NCBI RefSeq assembly: GCF_028767185.1
Contig: NZ_JARACK010000004.1
Location: 124,001-188,000 of the forward strand
From: Mangrovimonas aestuarii
GTDB taxonomy: Bacteria; Bacteroidota; Bacteroidia; Flavobacteriales; Flavobacteriaceae
Direction: 5' to 3'
DNA: 64,000 nucleotides
The translations under genes were made by a program, and so were the position numbers. Below the pieces are notes generated by a model. The model ran no database searches, had not been told where the DNA came from, and saw only the letters and a program-made list of their open reading frames with translations. Shown here piece after piece: positions 9,072-59,016 of the stretch. Position 1 is the stretch's first letter. Each line of letters starts with the position of its first letter.

Positions 9072-10454
9072 ATGAAAACGAAACTTACATTTGCATTTGC
9101 AATATTCTTCATGGGGCTGAGCTTAGGATATGCGCAGCAAGATGAAGAGTGTATGACTAAGCTATCTATATTCCATGAGTATGTAAAAGCTAAAAATTAC
9201 GATGCCGCATACGGACCATGGAAAGATGTTAGGGAAAAATGCCCTAAACTAAATATTGCAACATATTCTGATGGAGAGAAAATCCTTGAGCATAAAATTG
9301 AAAACTCTTCTGGAGCAGAGCAAGTAGCAAACATTAATGATTTGTTGAAGCTTTACGATCAGCGTTTGGAAAACTTCCCAGACAAAACAAAAAAAGGAGA
9401 GTTGTTGGGAGATAAAGCCCAATTAATGTACGATTATAAGAAGGAACTTGGTTTGAGCGATATGGATGTTTATAATGCATTCGATAAAGCATTTACAGTA
9501 GACAAGGCTACTTTTAACAACCCTAAAGGGCTATACACATATTTTTCTTTAATGGTAGATCTTTACGATGCTAAAGAAAAGTCCGCTCAGGATTTGTTTG
9601 ACAAATATGATGATGTTACAGAGAAGGTAGAGTCTGAAGTTGGTAATTACTCTGAAGATTTAAATAAACTTATAGCTAAAGAAGAAGCGAACACTCCTTT
9701 AAGTTCTAAAGAGGAAAAGTATAAGCGTTATTACGAAAGTTACTTGACAAATTATGATAAGATTTCGGCTGGTATTGATAAAAAATTAGGAGACCGTGCT
9801 AATTGCGAAAACTTAATTCCTTTGTATACTAAAAACTTTGAGGCTAATAAAACCAATGCGCAATGGTTACAGCGTGCTGCTGGAAAAATGTCTGAGAAGG
9901 ATTGTACTAGTGATCCGTTGTTCTTTAAGTTAGTACATGCTTACCACGAATTGAGTCCTTCTGCAAATTCGGCTTACTATTTAGGGATTTTAAAGGATAA
10001 GGAAGGTGATTCGAATGGAGCGCTTAAGTATTACGAGCAAGCTTTAAGTTTAGAAAAGGATAATTTCAAAAAAGCGAAGCTTAACGAAAAAATCGGAAAC
10101 AAGTTAAAGGCAAAAGGAAGCTATGCAAAAGCAAGAGAGTATTACAGACAATCATTGAAGTTAAATCCTTCAAATGGACGTCCTCACTTGAATATTGCAG
10201 CTATGTATGCTAGTAGTGCCAACAATTGTGGCGATACTACCTTCAACAAACGTGCAGTATATTGGTTGGCTGCAGATGAAGCTAAAAAAGCAGGAAAAGT
10301 AGATCCTACTCTAAAAAGTGCCGCTCAACAAAGTGTTGCAAGCTATATGGCTAAGGCGCCTCAAAAAGGAGATATTTTCAGCCAAGGTAATCAAGGACAA
10401 TCTATAAAAATAAATTGTTGGATTGGTACTACGATCACAGTTCCTAATCTATAA
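9072..10454 (+). CDS. periplasmic tetratricopeptide-repeat protein
   Basis: 460 residues from ATG 9072, chosen because it directly gives a signal peptide (MKTKLTFAFAIFFMGLSLGYAQ). An in-frame GTG/ATG reading begins earlier at 9012 but would overlap the previous gene and lack a signal at its start. TPR-like helices are visible near residues 330-420 (SAYYLGILKDKEGD, ALKYYEQALSLEKDNFKKA, AREYYRQSLKLNPSNGRPH). The earlier half is helical and acidic. It overlaps the lptC start by one base (TAATG), so it belongs to the coaX-lptC operon. Such proteins act as assembly or scaffold factors; the specific role is unknown. Confidence 0.8.
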   Translation: MKTKLTFAFAIFFMGLSLGYAQQDEECMTKLSIFHEYVKAKNYDAAYGPWKDVREKCPKLNIATYSDGEKILEHKIENSSGAEQVANINDLLKLYDQRLENFPDKTKKGELLGDKAQLMYDYKKELGLSDMDVYNAFDKAFTVDKATFNNPKGLYTYFSLMVDLYDAKEKSAQDLFDKYDDVTEKVESEVGNYSEDLNKLIAKEEANTPLSSKEEKYKRYYESYLTNYDKISAGIDKKLGDRANCENLIPLYTKNFEANKTNAQWLQRAAGKMSEKDCTSDPLFFKLVHAYHELSPSANSAYYLGILKDKEGDSNGALKYYEQALSLEKDNFKKAKLNEKIGNKLKAKGSYAKAREYYRQSLKLNPSNGRPHLNIAAMYASSANNCGDTTFNKRAVYWLAADEAKKAGKVDPTLKSAAQQSVASYMAKAPQKGDIFSQGNQGQSIKINCWIGTTITVPNL

Positions 10455-54444: not shown

Positions 54445-55342
54445 GTATTATTTAAATTATCTGGATGAATTGGAGAGCGAAGCTATTTATGTGCTTCGCG
54501 AAGTATGGGCACAGTTTGATAATCCCGTGATCCTCTTTTCAGGAGGGAAGGATTCGATTGTTGTAACCCATTTAGCCAAAAAAGCATTTTATCCATCTAA
54601 AATTCCATTTGCATTGATGCATGTGGATACAGGACACAATTTCCCAGAGACTATTAAGTTTAGGGATGATTTGATTAATGAGCTTGGGGTGAACCTTATT
54701 GTAGGTTCTGTTCAGGAGTCTATCGATCAAGGTCGTGTAGCCGAAGAAAAAGGAAAGAATGCCACTCGTAATGCGCTTCAGATTACTACTTTATTAGATG
54801 CCATTGAAGAAAATAAAATTGACTGTGCTATAGGTGGTGGACGTCGTGATGAGGAAAAGGCCAGAGCTAAAGAGCGTTTCTTCTCTCACCGTGACGATTT
54901 TGGGCAGTGGGATCCTAAAAACCAACGTCCGGAGTTGTGGAACTTATTCAACGGAAAGCATTTTGAAGGTGAGCATTTTAGAGCGTTTCCGATAAGTAAC
55001 TGGACAGAAATGGATGTTTGGAACTACATCAAACGAGAGAACATAGCTATTCCATCACTGTACTTTGCACACGAGCGTGAAGTAGTATGGCGTAACAACT
55101 CTTGGATTCCGAACTCTGAGTTCTTGATTTTGGAAGATGAAGAAGAAGTGTTGACCAAGAAAATCCGATTTAGAACTCTAGGAGATATCACTATTACAGG
55201 TGGTATAGAGTCCGATGCTGATACCCTTGAGAAAATAGCTCATGAAGTTTCAGCTATGCGTCAAACCGAGCGTGGAAACCGTAGTGACGATAAGCGTTCG
55301 GAGACAGCGATGGAGGATCGCAAGAGGCAAGGGTATTTCTAA
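54437..55342 (+). CDS. cysD: sulfate adenylyltransferase small subunit CysD
   Basis: 301 residues of the PP-loop ATP pyrophosphatase fold: LFSGGKDSIVV (about 33-43), HVDTGHNFPET (about 63-73), IGGGRRDEEKARAKER, and the tail MRQTERGNRSDDKRSE typical of CysD. With CysN it makes APS from sulfate and ATP. cysN normally follows at once; here 508 bases carrying a four-helix-bundle gene and two repeat arrays lie between them. Confidence 0.97.
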   Translation: MSKYYLNYLDELESEAIYVLREVWAQFDNPVILFSGGKDSIVVTHLAKKAFYPSKIPFALMHVDTGHNFPETIKFRDDLINELGVNLIVGSVQESIDQGRVAEEKGKNATRNALQITTLLDAIEENKIDCAIGGGRRDEEKARAKERFFSHRDDFGQWDPKNQRPELWNLFNGKHFEGEHFRAFPISNWTEMDVWNYIKRENIAIPSLYFAHEREVVWRNNSWIPNSEFLILEDEEEVLTKKIRFRTLGDITITGGIESDADTLEKIAHEVSAMRQTERGNRSDDKRSETAMEDRKRQGYF

Positions 55343-55386
55343 ATTGAAGTAAAGTCGTGAAGTTGATTTGGGATTTGTCATTGAAT

Positions 55387-55421
55387 GCTTTAGGCTATAA
55401 GCTATAGGCGTTAGGCTTATT
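55387..55421 (+). repeat. heptamer array C, 5 units
   Basis: GCTTTAG, GCTATAA, GCTATAG, GCGTTAG, GCTTATT in register. It lies 45 bases after the cysD stop and 19 bases before the four-helix-bundle gene, in the plus orientation. Confidence 0.88.
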
Positions 55422-55440
55422 TAGGAAATAATTTGATTGG

Positions 55441-55794
55441 ATGAGAAACTTTAGGAAATATGATGTTTGGGAGTTAAGTCATGATTTGGTTCTTGAAGTT
55501 TATAGATTAACCAAAGCATTTCCAGATAGTGAAAAATACCAATTGATTTCGCAAATGCAACGCGCTGCATATTCCATTCCTTCAAATTTTAGTGAGGGGT
55601 GTGGGAGAGCAAGTGATAAAGACTTTAACAGATTTGTTCAAATATGTTTAGGGTCTGCACACGAGTTAGAATACTTCACTATTTTGAGTAAAGATTTGGA
55701 TTATATTACTGAAACTAATTATATAAATCTTAACTCTAAAGTAAACGATATAAAGAAAAAACTATACAGTTTAGGGCTAAAGTTGAAAGACTAG
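55441..55794 (+). CDS. four-helix-bundle protein (23S rRNA intervening-sequence protein family)
   Basis: 117 residues, all helical. Opens MRNFRKYDVWELSHDLVLEVYRLT (in part), then FPDSEKYQLISQMQRAAYSIPSNFSEG (in part) and SAHELEYFTIL, the hallmarks of the TIGR02436/IVP family of pentameric four-helix-bundle proteins. Members occur inside 23S rRNA intervening sequences, scattered singly in Bacteroidota, and as the accessory protein of some retroelements; function is open. It splits the cysD-cysN pair and is bounded by array C (plus orientation) and array D (minus orientation), which looks like a separate inserted unit. Confidence 0.9.
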   Translation: MRNFRKYDVWELSHDLVLEVYRLTKAFPDSEKYQLISQMQRAAYSIPSNFSEGCGRASDKDFNRFVQICLGSAHELEYFTILSKDLDYITETNYINLNSKVNDIKKKLYSLGLKLKD

Positions 55795-55803
55795 TCCGTA
55801 ATA

Positions 55804-55840
55804 GAGCCTATAGCTTACTGCTTAAGGCTTACAGCTTAAA
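55804..55840 (-). repeat. heptamer array D, 5 units, inverted
   Basis: On the minus strand from 55840 downward: GCTGTAA, GCCTTAA, GCAGTAA, GCTATAG, GCTC follow TTTAA, the same GCNNTAR consensus as the other arrays but in the opposite direction. It ends 10 bases before the cysN start. Together with array C it brackets the four-helix-bundle gene. Confidence 0.85.
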
Positions 55841-55850
55841 AGAAAAAAAT

Positions 55851-57104
55851 ATGTTAGAAAATAATCAACTTTTAAGATTCACAACGGCAGGAAGTGTGGA
55901 CGATGGAAAGAGTACGTTGATAGGCCGTTTGTTATACGATTCAAAATCAATTTTTGAAGACCAACTGGAGGCGATTGAAACTACCAGTAAAAAGAAAGGA
56001 CACGAAGGTGTTGACTTAGCACTTTTCACTGATGGATTACGCGATGAACGTGAACAAGGTATTACCATCGATGTTGCTTATCGCTATTTCACTACGCCAA
56101 AACGTAAGTTTATCATTGCGGATACTCCTGGACATATCCAATATACCAGAAACATGGTTACTGGAGCGTCAACGGCAAATGCTGCTATTATATTGGTGGA
56201 TGCACGTCATGGGGTTATAGAGCAAACTCGCCGTCATGCGTTTATCGCATCCTTATTGCAGATTCCGCACATTATTGTATGTGTCAATAAAATGGATTTG
56301 GTAGACTTTTCTGAAGAAGCTTATAACAATGTTATTGAGCAGTTCGAAGAGTTCTCATCAAAGCTATTGGTGAAGGATGTACGCTTTATTCCAATTTCTG
56401 CTTTATTAGGAGACAACGTTGTAAACCGCTCGACCAACATGGATTGGTATCAAGGTGCGCCGTTGTTACATACCTTGGAGACCATGCACATTAGCAGTGA
56501 CATCAATAAAGTAGATGCCCGTTTCCCAGTGCAAACCGTGTTGCGTCCACAAAGCGAGCAACACAGAGACTATCGTGGTTATGCGGGTCGTATTTCTAGT
56601 GGTGTATTCCGTGTAGGAGATGAGGTTACAGTATTACCTTCAGGATTTACGTCAAAAATTAAGTCACTTGATACCTTGAATGAAAGCTTGGAAGAAGCAT
56701 ATGCTACGATGTCAATTTCAATGACTTTGGAAGATGATATTGACATCAGTAGAGGCGATATGATTGTTCGCAGTAATAACCAACCAGAAGCTGTTCAGGA
56801 CTTGGATGTGATGTTGTGTTGGTTGCACAATAATGTGGCTAAGCCAAGAGCTAAATATACCATCCGCCATACATCGAATGAGCAAAAGGCGATGATAAAA
56901 GAAGTAGTTTACAATATCGACATCAACACTTTGGAGCGTAATAGTGAAGACAAGGATTTGAAGATGAATGCTATAGCCAAAGTGAAAATCAGAACCACTA
57001 AACCTCTTATGGTAGATTCATACCGTGAAAACCGCACTACTGGTAGTATCATTTTAGTTGATGACGCGACCAATGAGACGGTTGCTGCGGGGATGATAGT
57101 TTAA
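55851..57104 (+). CDS. cysN: sulfate adenylyltransferase large subunit CysN
   Basis: 417 residues. Translation-factor-type GTPase: G1 GSVDDGKST (about 15-23), DERERGIT-like DEREQGITIDVAY (about 64-76), G3 DTPGHIQYTRNM, G4 NKMDLVDF, then two beta-barrel domains to the end. GTP hydrolysis drives APS formation by CysD. This is the short form without a fused CysC kinase, in line with the separate cysC upstream. Confidence 0.97.
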   Translation: MLENNQLLRFTTAGSVDDGKSTLIGRLLYDSKSIFEDQLEAIETTSKKKGHEGVDLALFTDGLRDEREQGITIDVAYRYFTTPKRKFIIADTPGHIQYTRNMVTGASTANAAIILVDARHGVIEQTRRHAFIASLLQIPHIIVCVNKMDLVDFSEEAYNNVIEQFEEFSSKLLVKDVRFIPISALLGDNVVNRSTNMDWYQGAPLLHTLETMHISSDINKVDARFPVQTVLRPQSEQHRDYRGYAGRISSGVFRVGDEVTVLPSGFTSKIKSLDTLNESLEEAYATMSISMTLEDDIDISRGDMIVRSNNQPEAVQDLDVMLCWLHNNVAKPRAKYTIRHTSNEQKAMIKEVVYNIDINTLERNSEDKDLKMNAIAKVKIRTTKPLMVDSYRENRTTGSIILVDDATNETVAAGMIV

Positions 57105-57125
57105 ATAGTGTGAAGATTTTTTCTG

Positions 57126-57154
57126 TTTTTCCCCGACCCTAAAGGGATCCAAAA
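57126..57154 (+). repeat. CCCTAAAGGG element R1
   Basis: CCCTAAAGGG at 57137-57146 preceded by CCCCGA. Outer arms TTTTT and AAAA pair only weakly. It is 33 bases after the cysN stop. Confidence 0.6.
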
Positions 57155-57182
57155 GCGGTTTAGAAATATATTTGAAAATCAA

Positions 57183-57216
57183 TTTCTTTTCCCCCTGAAA
57201 CCCTAAAGGGGAGAAA
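57183..57216 (+). repeat. CCCTAAAGGG element R2
   Basis: CCCTAAAGGG at 57201-57210 preceded by CCCCCTGAAA. The outer arms ATTTCT and AGAAAT are complementary. Confidence 0.7.
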
Positions 57217-57281
57217 TGGCATTTTGTTTTAATAAGCGGACTTTATTTCACTATTTTTTGTATTGAAGTGAATAGATAATA

Positions 57282-57328
57282 CAAACTGTTTTTTATTTCC
57301 CCTCCCTAAAGGGTGAAAAAACAGTTTG
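57282..57328 (+). repeat. CCCTAAAGGG element R3 with 13-bp arms
   Basis: Outer arms CAAACTGTTTTTT (57282-57294) and AAAAAACAGTTTG (57316-57328) pair perfectly. The core CCCCTCCCTAAAGGGTG (57299-57315) sits in the loop, with CCCT/AGGG able to pair inside. It ends 15 bases before the DUF559 gene. Confidence 0.9.
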
Positions 57329-57343
57329 CTAAAAAATAATTAA

Positions 57344-57742
57344 TTGAAGTCAAGTCAACCATACCATGACGAAAGTATGTTTAAGGGTGCTCCAGCAGAG
57401 AATTTTAGGAAAGCTGAGTTGCTACGACAAAATACGACTGAGTCTGAGAATAAACTTTGGTTGATTCTCAAGGATGGACAGTTTGAAGGATATAAATTCA
57501 GAAGGCAGCATCCGATTCATTTGTTTATAGTTGATTTTTATTGTCATGAGTTACGATTGGTTATTGAGGTTGATGGAGGATACCATAATTCGCAAGAGCA
57601 GCATGAGGCAGATAATAAAAGAGAAGAATTGCTTAAGTTCCAAGATTTGAGAATCCTTAGGTTTAAGAATGAAGATGTTTTAGACAATTTAGATGAAGTT
57701 GTTTTTGAATTGAAGCAAAAAATTGAAGAAATAAAAGCATAA
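57344..57742 (+). CDS. DUF559 protein (Vsr-like endonuclease fold)
   Basis: 132 residues from TTG 57344; ATG 57377 is an in-frame alternative that would drop the first 11, which look family-like (YHDESMFKGA). The domain is DUF559: AELLRQNTTESENKLW, FRRQHPIHLFIVDFYC, LVIEVDGGYH and LRILRFKNEDVLDN. Candidate metal/active residues of the restriction-nuclease fold are D64, E75, D77 and H81. These single-domain proteins are common and scattered in Bacteroidota with no proven function. It interrupts the cysN-cysQ order and lies among five hairpin repeats. Confidence 0.88.
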   Translation: MKSSQPYHDESMFKGAPAENFRKAELLRQNTTESENKLWLILKDGQFEGYKFRRQHPIHLFIVDFYCHELRLVIEVDGGYHNSQEQHEADNKREELLKFQDLRILRFKNEDVLDNLDEVVFELKQKIEEIKA

Positions 57743-57752
57743 GTTGTGAAAC

Positions 57753-57793
57753 TCTTTTTCACTTCTCCCCTCCCTAAAGGGTGGTGAAAAAGA
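57753..57793 (+). repeat. CCCTAAAGGG element R4 with 10-bp arms
   Basis: Outer arms TCTTTTTCAC (57753-57762) and GTGAAAAAGA (57784-57793) pair perfectly. The core CCCCTCCCTAAAGGGTG (57767-57783) is the same as in R3. It starts 10 bases after the DUF559 stop. Confidence 0.9.
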
Positions 57794-57868
57794 ATTTCTG
57801 AGACAGAAGAAAAACAAACTGTTCTATTTAGAGTGTCTAAATGATTATGAAAATTGACTACTATTTGA

Positions 57869-57904
57869 GGATTTTTACCCTTTAGGGTTAGGGCAGGAAA
57901 ATCC
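57869..57904 (-). repeat. CCCTAAAGGG element R5, inverted
   Basis: On the minus strand: arm GGATTTT, core CCTGCCCTAACCCTAAAGGG, arm AAAATCC. The arms (57869-57875 and 57898-57904) pair perfectly. It is oriented opposite to R1-R4. Confidence 0.85.
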
Positions 57905-57968
57905 GAAATATAATGGACACTGTTTTCCTTTTATCATTTGATCTAGGGAAAAAATACTAACCAAGAAA

Positions 57969-58763
57969 ATGAAAAACTTACTAAACATAGCCATCAAGGC
58001 AGCCCTAAGTGCTGGGGAGAAAATCATGCACATATACGAGAACGAGGATTTTGAAGTGGATTTCAAATCTGATGACTCGCCTTTGACAAAAGCTGATTTA
58101 GCGTCCCATAAGATTATCATGGAATATTTGGAAGAAACGGCTATTCCTGTGTTATCGGAAGAAGGGAAACATTTACCTTATGATGAGCGTAAAGTTTGGG
58201 AGCGTTTATGGATTGTTGATCCTATAGATGGCACTAAGGAATTTATCAAGCGTAATGGTGAGTTTACCGTAAACATTGCCTTGGTAGATAATCAAAAGCC
58301 TGTTTTAGGAGTGATTTATGTGCCGGCCAAGAATGAGTTGTATTATTCAACAAAAGAGGAAGGAGCGTTTAAGGTAAATAATGTTTCACAGATTGATGAT
58401 TTAGATGTTTTGCTGTCTAAGGCTCAGATACTACCATTAAATATTGCCAAAAATAGTTTTACGGTAGTAGCTAGTAAATCCCATTTATCTCCGGAAACGG
58501 AAGATTATATCAATACGTTGAAAGAAGAGCATGGTGAGATAGAAACCATGTCTAAGGGAAGCTCTTTAAAATTATGTATGGTAGCCGAAGGCGTAGCAGA
58601 TTGTTATCCGCGATTTGCACCAACCATGGAATGGGACACAGCTGCTGGACAAGCGATTTGTGAACATTCTGGTGCAACTGTAATTGATTGGCAAACTAAG
58701 CAACCAATGTTATATAACAGGGAAGAGCTGTTGAATAATTGGTTTTTGGTTTCGAGGCTGTAA
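57969..58763 (+). CDS. cysQ: 3'(2'),5'-bisphosphate nucleotidase CysQ
   Basis: 264 residues of the inositol-monophosphatase superfamily. Metal-binding motifs: SEEG near 59-62, DPIDGTKEFI (about 83-92) and EWDTAAGQA (about 217-225). It removes the 3' phosphate from PAP, the product left when PAPS donates its sulfate, and so relieves product inhibition. Its presence with cysC, cysD and cysN fits a sulfation locus. A heptamer array covers its last codons and supplies the stop. Confidence 0.96.
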   Translation: MKNLLNIAIKAALSAGEKIMHIYENEDFEVDFKSDDSPLTKADLASHKIIMEYLEETAIPVLSEEGKHLPYDERKVWERLWIVDPIDGTKEFIKRNGEFTVNIALVDNQKPVLGVIYVPAKNELYYSTKEEGAFKVNNVSQIDDLDVLLSKAQILPLNIAKNSFTVVASKSHLSPETEDYINTLKEEHGEIETMSKGSSLKLCMVAEGVADCYPRFAPTMEWDTAAGQAICEHSGATVIDWQTKQPMLYNREELLNNWFLVSRL

Positions 58764-58798
58764 GCTTTAAGCAGTAGGCTATAGGCGCTAAGCTATAA
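58757..58798 (+). repeat. heptamer array E, 6 units, overlapping the cysQ stop
   Basis: GCTGTAA, GCTTTAA, GCAGTAG, GCTATAG, GCGCTAA, GCTATAA in perfect register. The first unit contains the cysQ stop codon (TAA at 58761-58763). Confidence 0.92.
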
Positions 58799-58871
58799 AT
58801 ACCAAGTCTTGTTTAATGATAAATTTTCACCTTTTGTGAGGTAGATAACTATTGAACACTCTCGTTGGCAG

Positions 58872-58917
58872 ATATCTTTTAAAAATCATACTTTTAGAAA
58901 AATATTTAAAAGGATAT
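58872..58917. promoter_or_regulatory. inverted repeat upstream of the cupin gene
   Basis: ATATCTTTTAAA (58872-58883) pairs with TTTAAAAGGATAT (58905-58917) with one bulged G. It lies about 100 bases before the cupin gene. Function unknown; AT-rich, so chance is possible. Confidence 0.35.
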
Positions 58918-59016
58918 TTCAAAGAACACGACATCGTCTTCCATTAATTAATAAATTAAATAGTCCACCAACGCCTTTCCTTTCATTAAAAAGGACTGTC
59001 CAAAAGCAATAGCAAT

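Follow-up and report, generated by a model that had tools for sequence, protein, structure and literature searches.

A DUF559 nuclease gene enclosed by hairpins related to BoxC/PIT/triplex-motif repeats in Mangrovimonas aestuarii: a probable small mobile element

A 64,000-nucleotide stretch of the Mangrovimonas aestuarii genome (positions 124,001 to 188,000 of contig NZ_JARACK010000004.1; hereafter, the window, meaning the whole stretch) carries, between cysN and cysQ, a small DUF559 nuclease gene surrounded by five short hairpin repeats. Judged by their counterparts at related loci, the hairpins are best regarded as short-stem relatives of the BoxC/PIT/triplex-motif (TM) repeats, not strict TMs. 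The DUF559 protein is probably the cognate nuclease of such hairpins, with TM-DUF559-TM acting as a small autonomous mobile element and lone TMs being its non-autonomous or decayed copies. The association of gene and repeat, the covariation of repeat subtype with the nuclease, the occurrence of TM-bounded units as insertions, the conservation of putative active-site residues and a nuclease-like fold are directly supported. An earlier note on this DNA, made from its letters alone, had described the hairpins and suggested a nuclease that recognizes them, as in the RAYT/REP systems; the relation to BoxC/PIT/TM repeats is a point that it missed.

The block between cysN and cysQ is an insertion, because the two genes, assigned by the profiles TIGR02034 and TIGR01331, are adjacent in two relatives (L274 and L291), in which the site lacks the block and the gap is shorter than 20 bp. 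A cysQ gene was identified in 69 of 149 genomes; 30 loci were examined, the window's own included; the end of cysN was found at three of them (the window, L274, and L291), the other 27 being uninformative either way. The features of the locus are as follows.

57105 to 57968, no strand assigned: inserted block with five repeats and the DUF559 gene, between cysN and cysQ, which are adjacent in relatives.
57131 to 57146, plus strand: R1, core CCCC-GA-CCC-TAAA-GGG, strong arms absent (5 bp only).
57191 to 57211, plus strand: R2, longer-spacer core CCCCC-TGAAA-CCC-TAAA-GGGG, outer arms weak (6 bp).
57282 to 57328, plus strand: R3, 13-bp arms (57282-57294 and 57316-57328) that are 100% complementary, core 57299-57315.
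57377 to 57742, plus strand: DUF559 (PF04480) nuclease gene, 121 amino acids from ATG (132 from the TTG at 57344).
57748 to 57798, plus strand: R4, 15-nt arms (57748-57762 and 57784-57798) complementary at 14 of 15 positions (93%), core 57767-57783.
57869 to 57904, minus strand: R5, inverted, arms GGATTTT and AAAATCC (7 bp), core 57878-57893.

Exact copies of the core sequence CCCTAAAGGG lie at 57137, 57201, 57304 and 57772 on the plus strand and at 57878 on the minus strand; a sixth copy in the window lies at 9521, and a simple base-composition estimate predicts 0.05 copies in 64 kb. The earlier note's account of five cores around the gene, with arms that differ yet stay complementary, was borne out, the arms of R1 and R2 being weak. 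The same is true of the 17-base core common to R3 and R4, CCCCTCCCTAAAGGGTG, which occurs twice (57299-57315 and 57767-57783), and of the inverted R5 with 7-bp arms and R2 with 6-bp arms. Of the perfect arms that the note assigned to R3 (13 bp) and R4 (10 bp), the former were recovered, and the latter were measured at 15 nt with 93% complementarity. Its spacing of 15 bases between R3 and the gene holds from the alternative TTG start only (57344), the distance to the ATG start (57377) being 48 bases, and R4 begins 5 bases past the stop codon, not 10.

The relation to the BoxC/PIT/TM family was recognized at the loci of relatives, since the tail of the window's repeats is a run of C, in which mirror symmetry is trivial, and family membership rests on those relatives. 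Near DUF559 genes of related genera, the repeats follow a common plan of C-rich tail, spacer, C/T arm, loop and G/A arm. Among 140 hairpins within 1 kb of DUF559 genes of relatives, each with an arm that is not its own mirror, 59 had an exact mirror of the stem arm within 60 nt and one had an exact direct copy; the mirror outscored the direct copy in 105 and scored below it in 1. Permutations of the arm's letters scored as well in 18% of cases on average for the mirror and in 59% for the direct copy. The copies of relatives thereby resemble BoxC/PIT/TM repeats (E. coli TM_ECO; Hoyne and Maher) in having a pyrimidine arm, loop, purine arm, spacer and mirror tail, and in being dispersed and arranged in inverted pairs, and two Acinetobacter types resemble E. 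coli types A and B. The differences are that the window subtype combines three to four core pairs with a variable outer stem, and that the spacer of many Flavobacteriaceae copies contains a further, variable hairpin; at loci such as L098, L101, and L103, many TMs were seen by eye to have a self-complementary hairpin of variable sequence between stem and tail. The published search rule requires a stem of 6-15 triads (Holder et al., 2015; PMC4666352), and the window copies are called a short-stem relative because their cores have only three to four C/G pairs.

Holder et al. (2015) counted 23 TM copies in E. coli MG1655 and, in the accessible part of their paper, reported that a function of TMs and activities conferring genetic mobility on them had not been found; reports of an intrastrand triplex are confined to in vitro work on the E. 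coli motif (PMC4666352). Neither DUF559 nor ycjD appears in the accessible text, which names no partner gene (PMC4666352). Their copy no. 9 lies at 1351239-1351204 (PMC4666352), between fabI and ycjD, the latter a gene annotated as DUF559 (1351407-1351760) that is about 170 bp away, and the sequence of the region shows the copy; being one locus, this is only suggestive. A literature search revealed no paper that pairs DUF559 with BoxC/PIT/TM repeats, subscription journals lying mostly outside its reach.

The association of TMs with DUF559 genes was measured with a strict TM definition (stem of at least 7, mirror tail matching at 6 of 7), each hairpin being counted once. A Flavobacteriaceae set comprised 60 standalone DUF559 genes, one per genome, from the 110 of 299 genomes with a match; they were chosen down the match list, with in-frame stops excluded and several genes near contig ends skipped, and they include two incomplete loci (L120 and L122) and one with masked bases (L131). 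A wide set comprised the best 80 of 333 loci from many phyla that encode a relative; it was gathered with peptide patterns of one DUF559 subfamily and is not representative of all PF04480. Controls were open reading frames (ORFs) of at least 100 amino acids, called mechanically on the same stretches at a distance of 1 kb or more. Within 200 bp, 45 of the 60 Flavobacteriaceae genes had a strict TM (22 of them on both sides) vs. 12 of 508 control ORFs; in the wide set, 64 of the 80 genes had one (23 on both sides) vs. 4 of 163 controls. Without Acinetobacter the wide set gave 43/59 vs. 4/119, and Acinetobacter alone 21/21 vs. 0/44. At the 30 best-scoring loci of a control family of small genes in the same bacterial family, 23S_rRNA_IVP, whose gene is present in 107 of 149 genomes, no strict TM was found (0/30). 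Within the first 100 bp there were about 6 TMs per kb, and past 2 kb the density was down to 0.01-0.04 per kb; median distances were 22-50 bp upstream and 0-38 bp downstream of DUF559 genes. Over the two sets together, the tail of the upstream TM pointed toward the gene in 71 of 89 cases, and 27 of 47 pairs were inverted ('+-'). DUF559 genes are thus far closer to the repeats than other genes are, as the earlier note's hypothesis had required. The second PF04480 match of the M. aestuarii genome (L002, C7:372741-372869) is a weak (25 bits), Vsr-like one, with no TM visible by eye in its flanks.

The probability that this association is an artefact of chance or composition, with GC-rich hairpins standing out in an AT-rich genome, is negligible. 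Short G/C runs are common in some other genomes, and a relaxed TM definition raises the control rate (52/60 vs. 41/508 in Flavobacteriaceae and 65/80 vs. 29/163 in the wide set). However, strict rates exceed those of controls more than 30-fold, reversed patterns give 0 to 4 matches per genome, and the excess of mirror over direct copies (59 vs. 1 of 140 hairpins) is foreign to such an artefact, which the controls refute.

Repeat subtype also follows the relatedness of the nuclease. Repeat signatures were usable at 74 of 82 loci, the other 8 being dropped. The overlap of signatures between genomes was 0.149 for DUF559 proteins below 35% identity and 0.141 at 35-45% (n = 1232), and then rose through 0.221 and 0.345 to 0.526 above 65%. 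A Mantel test of TM similarity against protein identity gave r = 0.50, the best of 5000 permutations reaching 0.148. Paralogues of 35-45% identity within one genome overlapped at 0.155 (n = 11), about as between-genome pairs do (0.141). Exact CCCTAAAGGG occurs within 400 bp of 11 of 81 other DUF559 genes; these include 7 of the 8 genes that encode the closest proteins to the window's and 4 of the remaining 73 (p = 7e-7). At several of these loci the arms again differ and pair, as judged by eye. On this comparison of sequences, TM subtype appears matched to DUF559 clade, with host descent not fully removed.

The window protein is a member of PF04480 (112.5 bits). Comparison of a 36-sequence profile with the PDB identified 3hrl, an endonuclease-like protein (E = 1.9e-37), and 3r3p, a mobile intron protein (E = 5.4e-5); further matches were weak and chance-looking except PvuRts1I (0.05). 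An AF2 model (pLDDT 85, pTM 0.78) likewise matched 3hrl (8.5e-9) and then the catalytic domain of I-Bth0305I (3r3p, 5.2e-4) in Foldseek, followed by mitoribosomal proteins (2e-3 and weaker), AbaSI/PvuRts1I (about 1e-2), Vsr (0.26) and TnsA (0.7). The nuclease fold that had been attributed to DUF559 from the letters alone is supported by the family assignment, by both profile matches and by the structural match to I-Bth0305I. Residues E64, D66, H70 and D79 are invariant in the 36-sequence alignment, and, in our own reading, they would correspond to the published EDxHD motif and form a putative active site. DUF559 is assigned to the EDxHD homing-endonuclease family in the accessible part of a Thermosynechococcus paper (PMC9403480), and EDxHD enzymes are described as resembling type II restriction enzymes in mechanism in the portion available of a review (PMC3943268). 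The DUF559 protein shares with I-Bth0305I and, more weakly, with Vsr (PDB 3r3p and 1vsr) a related catalytic fold and the conserved E..D..H..D residues. It differs in that its gene is bounded by repeats and occurs at many unrelated sites, and in that a protein of 121 amino acids leaves little space for extra DNA-binding domains. Without a systematic search, no intron or intein was seen at the loci that were read. A known defence system was considered and set aside, PADLOC giving only weak matches, the best of which was a 'Type II methyl-directed restriction enzyme' at 30.6 bits.

Insertions of the unit into protein-coding genes provide evidence of mobility. Reading of 27 DUF559 copies located in long open frames placed 15 in leucyl-tRNA synthetase (LeuRS), 6 in MetH, 4 before HemD, 1 in RecG and 1 after HisD by flanking sequence; Pfam confirmed one LeuRS, one MetH, the RecG, the HisD and two HemD hosts, and the remainder are our own reading. 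The HemD and HisD cases could be terminal fusions rather than insertions. Additionally, an HrpA-like helicase has DUF559 between its DEAD and Helicase_C domains in Sideroxydans (L143), a proteobacterial metagenome-assembled genome (L146) and a member of the Gallionellaceae (L147). For these embedded copies a relaxed rule was used, in which a stem of at least 4 plus a C or G tail defines a TM-like hairpin. Such hairpins stood on both sides of 13 of 15 LeuRS, 5 of 6 MetH, 3 of 3 HrpA and 2 of 4 HemD units and of the HisD case, and on one side of the RecG unit, vs. 9 of 324 background stretches, each of 170 nt, from other parts of the 27 embedded loci (HrpA loci excluded). Seven LeuRS units were read at the DNA level, and in these the reading frame of the gene continues through the repeats, which are translated.

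The insertion site in LeuRS occurs in three states: empty, with a lone TM, and with the full unit. LeuRS was found in 29 of 31 relatives; L241 was not used, and L245, missed by the pattern, was empty by eye. The segment at the insertion point measures 34-37 amino acids in 21 of the 29, including the window's own genome (L232). It holds a lone TM-like repeat in L234 and a DUF559 domain in L223 (the same genome as L045), and linkers are slightly longer in L227, L240 and L243. In MetH, one gene (L055) holds two DUF559 units that are 82.5% identical over 418 bp; the similarity stops at the TMs, and one unit's right end matches the other's left end as an inverted repeat (27 bp, 96%). The second of these MetH sites is empty in L047, L060 and L068, contains a lone TM relic in L059 and carries the full unit in L055. 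A different palindromic repeat, of CAGCAT type by eye, occupies the LeuRS site in L251 and the second MetH site in L039, and the loops of LeuRS and MetH seem to accept several kinds of element. The unit resembles a classical insertion sequence in its discrete ends and terminal inverted repeats, the ends of similarity in L055, the one gene examined, being inverted TMs. With DUF559 and the TMs, the 418 bp of the unit leave little space for a further gene, such as a DDE, HUH, serine or tyrosine transposase. Rickettsia palindromic elements (RPEs) are palindromic elements inserted in frame in protein genes, and the units described here share this property. The difference is that the present unit carries DUF559; RPEs are not known to carry a nuclease gene.

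These embedded units bear on two alternatives. In one, DUF559 would serve in repair as a Vsr-like or structure-specific nuclease, with the adjacent TMs as regulatory hairpins of its gene, acting as terminator, attenuator or determinant of mRNA stability. Vsr is a weak fold neighbour, one report, in its accessible portion, calls the DUF559 protein VsrA of Caulobacter Vsr-like and ties it to a solitary DNA methylase (PMC12907096), and the TMs lie close to start and stop codons, at the medians given above. This alternative is nevertheless very unlikely: cores also occur alone beside other genes of the M. aestuarii genome, leuS and metH contain in-frame TM-gene-TM units, at places at which a terminator would be pointless, and Maher's group observed neither promoter nor terminator activity of TMs, as told in PMC4666352. 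Likewise, no Rfam family matched positions 55000-59000 of the window. A terminator or other regulatory hairpin was set aside as a candidate on account of the in-frame units, and an RNA family on account of the Rfam result.

The second alternative, classical homing, is a possibility to be taken seriously, if a doubtful one. Here DUF559 would act as a free-standing homing endonuclease directed at the empty target locus or at a TM, with TMs as homology arms or cut site and lone TMs left by gene loss. It draws on the relation to I-Bth0305I in sequence and fold, the EDxHD label given to DUF559 in print, the conserved residues E64, D66, H70 and D79, and the three-state sites in MetH and LeuRS. Yet spread is ectopic: sites recur in LeuRS and MetH, but many unrelated ones are also used, and two units lie at different places of one gene. 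Furthermore, the arms of lone cores in the M. aestuarii genome are unlike those at the DUF559 gene, so not all of these need be simple deletion products. Homing overlaps with the preferred reading of TM-DUF559-TM as an autonomous element, differing from it in the origin of lone TMs.

Copies throughout the M. aestuarii genome (2.95 Mb) allowed the arms to be compared. Exact CCCTAAAGGG occurs 18 times vs. 4 for the reversed control pattern, and the longer TTTCCCCNACCCTAAAGGGNG, allowing up to 3 mismatches, 14 times vs. 1. Arms were tested in 15 intergenic-looking copies, 12 exact and 3 near-exact (L025, L028, and L030). Six of the 18 exact cores (L003, L004, L005, L016, L017, and L020), coding-looking or devoid of the element context by eye, were omitted, as was a match to TTTCCCCNACCCTAAAGGGNG (L033). 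Duplex scores of at least 7 were reached in 13 of the 15, the two below being R1 and R2, and the mean score of the copies' own arms was 9.07. Arms paired across different copies, with the shared-arm family excluded, averaged 5.2, with 23 of 180 reaching at least 7; shuffled arms averaged 4.97, with 7.7% reaching 7 and 0.5% reaching 9. The complementarity noted in the window thus extends to other genomic copies. Among the 13 well-paired copies, 6 have arms of an ATGTCA type and 7 have other sequences, two of these (L012 and L019) with a common GCTTTTG stretch.

All six ATGTCA-arm copies lie within about 17 kb of contig C10, and their flanks are unrelated save for overlapping stretches of neighbouring copies and short local repeats; in our own reading of the translations, genes like rpe, rpoD and rpsO are among their neighbours. 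This arm type travelled with the core or was locally duplicated with it, because it is common to six copies at differing places. The earlier note had offered, as one option, a repeat that inserts into existing palindromes; six copies of one arm type at different places, some with unrelated neighbours, weaken that option, and existing palindromes as the only source of arms were set aside for this reason. Around C10:222-226 kb (L013, L014, and L025), local repeats of 68 bp and about 220 bp, 84-90% identical, recur near hairpins, a region that is possibly made of composite arrays.

We infer binding, cleavage, a folded form, a route of copying and a role for the arms along the following lines. The TM, consisting of tail, stem and loop with the tail as the mirror of a stem arm, would fold once single-stranded, and a DUF559 protein of PD-(D/E)XK/EDxHD type may recognize the folded core. 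The protein might cut at or beside the core, or cut a target, or both, and the break could be repaired from a TM-flanked donor, by which a TM or TM-gene-TM would be copied in. In the window subtype, the outer arms may form a closing stem in which pairing matters more than sequence, either drifting by compensation or being exchanged between copies. Recognition of a fold, cutting and copying from a donor would be the most economical scheme because TM-bounded units multiply, lone TMs remain, subtype matches DUF559, and arms are tolerated if paired.

RAYTs are REP-associated tyrosine transposases, which are HUH tyrosine nucleases. The analogy with REPs and RAYTs drawn in the earlier note is supported by the covariation of nuclease and repeat and by TM-DUF559-TM units as insertions. 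Like REP/REPIN and RAYT, the system consists of short dispersed palindromes and one small nuclease gene flanked by copies, with repeat subtype matched to nuclease and copies beside other genes. In contrast, DUF559 has a PD-(D/E)XK/EDxHD-like fold and not that of an HUH tyrosine (Y1) nuclease, the TM repeat has a mirror tail, and units also occur in frame inside essential genes. TM-DUF559 works like REP/RAYT and homing elements and is a member of neither, because it has no HUH nuclease and its spread is ectopic. On balance, we lean toward considering TM-DUF559-TM a previously unrecognized class of minimal mobile element, with ends that fold into a hairpin plus a mirror, triplex-capable tail and with a PD-(D/E)XK/EDxHD-type nuclease of 120 amino acids as its sole protein, which spreads both itself and lone TMs across many bacterial phyla, in part by in-frame insertion into essential genes. 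If true, this would explain the origin of BoxC/PIT/TM repeats, whose mover is not named in the accessible text of PMC4666352, and would give both these repeats and DUF559, a family of 'unknown function' by name, a testable role. It would provide a second, independently built counterpart to REP/RAYT, a natural substrate for asking if a protein recognizes triplex-type folded DNA in vivo, and a source of in-frame insertions in essential proteins, e.g., leucyl-tRNA synthetase and methionine synthase.

Co-occurrence and selection were studied in 149 Acinetobacter genomes with a type A/B TM pattern, for which the reversed control gave 0 in the table. The pattern was present in 77 of 87 genomes with DUF559, a class that includes some with gene fragments only, vs. 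18 of 62 without it (p = 8e-14). The DUF559 protein is kept by purifying selection in this one lineage, because the median dN/dS is about 0.11 (0.11 over 187 pairs, a rough value given a median dS of 1.0).

Several observations weigh against TM-DUF559-TM as a self-spreading element with a cognate nuclease. At the window locus, the tails of the repeats point outward, unlike the majority arrangement elsewhere, the arms of R1 and R2 are poor, and the cores, with 3-4 C/G pairs, fail the strict stem criterion. The protein closest to that of the window (L111, 58%) has no exact core beside its gene, the overlap of within-genome pairs under 35% identity (0.257, n = 4) exceeds that of between-genome pairs (0.149), and host descent partly confounds the Mantel test. 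In Acinetobacter, the excess of TMs is modest after subtraction of 3 TMs per DUF559 copy (p = 0.011), 10 of 87 genomes with DUF559 lack the pattern, 18 of 62 without it retain TMs (up to 16), and 20 of 21 loci form one cluster linked by both flanks, in which recent movement was unseen. Two genomes (G007 and G255) contain only four exact TMs of one pattern, all flanking DUF559, with no lone copies of that exact pattern, and two embedded units (L045 in LeuRS and L069 in HemD) have no TM-like flank. The link of the Caulobacter DUF559 protein to a DNA methylase (PMC12907096) points the same way, as does the statement of Holder et al., in the accessible part of their paper, that a stable TM triplex in vivo was not supported (PMC4666352).

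Some of these points fit an alternative in which TMs are passive hot spots of recombination or breakage spread by other machinery, with DUF559 as cargo moved by homologous recombination between them. Holder et al. linked TMs to genome instability in the text available (PMC4666352), inverted TM pairs would aid recombination, and TMs persist in the 18 DUF559-negative Acinetobacter genomes. Such passivity is unlikely, given that other cargo is rare in the sample (12/508 and 4/163 controls; 0/30 IVP loci) and that repeat subtype tracks the relatedness of DUF559.

A separate observation concerns a gene close to the block. Imperfect palindromic repeats of AGCTT type stand on both flanks of a four-helix 23S_rRNA_IVP gene (PF05635; 55441-55794). 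The observation covers two regions of the window.

55382 to 55849: IVP gene with its flanking AGCTT-type repeats.
58743 to 58797: AGCTT-type repeat region.

The pattern TATAGCTTACTGCTTA, with up to 3 mismatches, has 9 matches in the window vs. 0.89 expected, and the two flanks of the gene were alike at 22 of 30 IVP loci vs. 11 of 30 control pairs. The IVP gene and the AGCTT-type repeats are perhaps a second pairing of gene and repeat.

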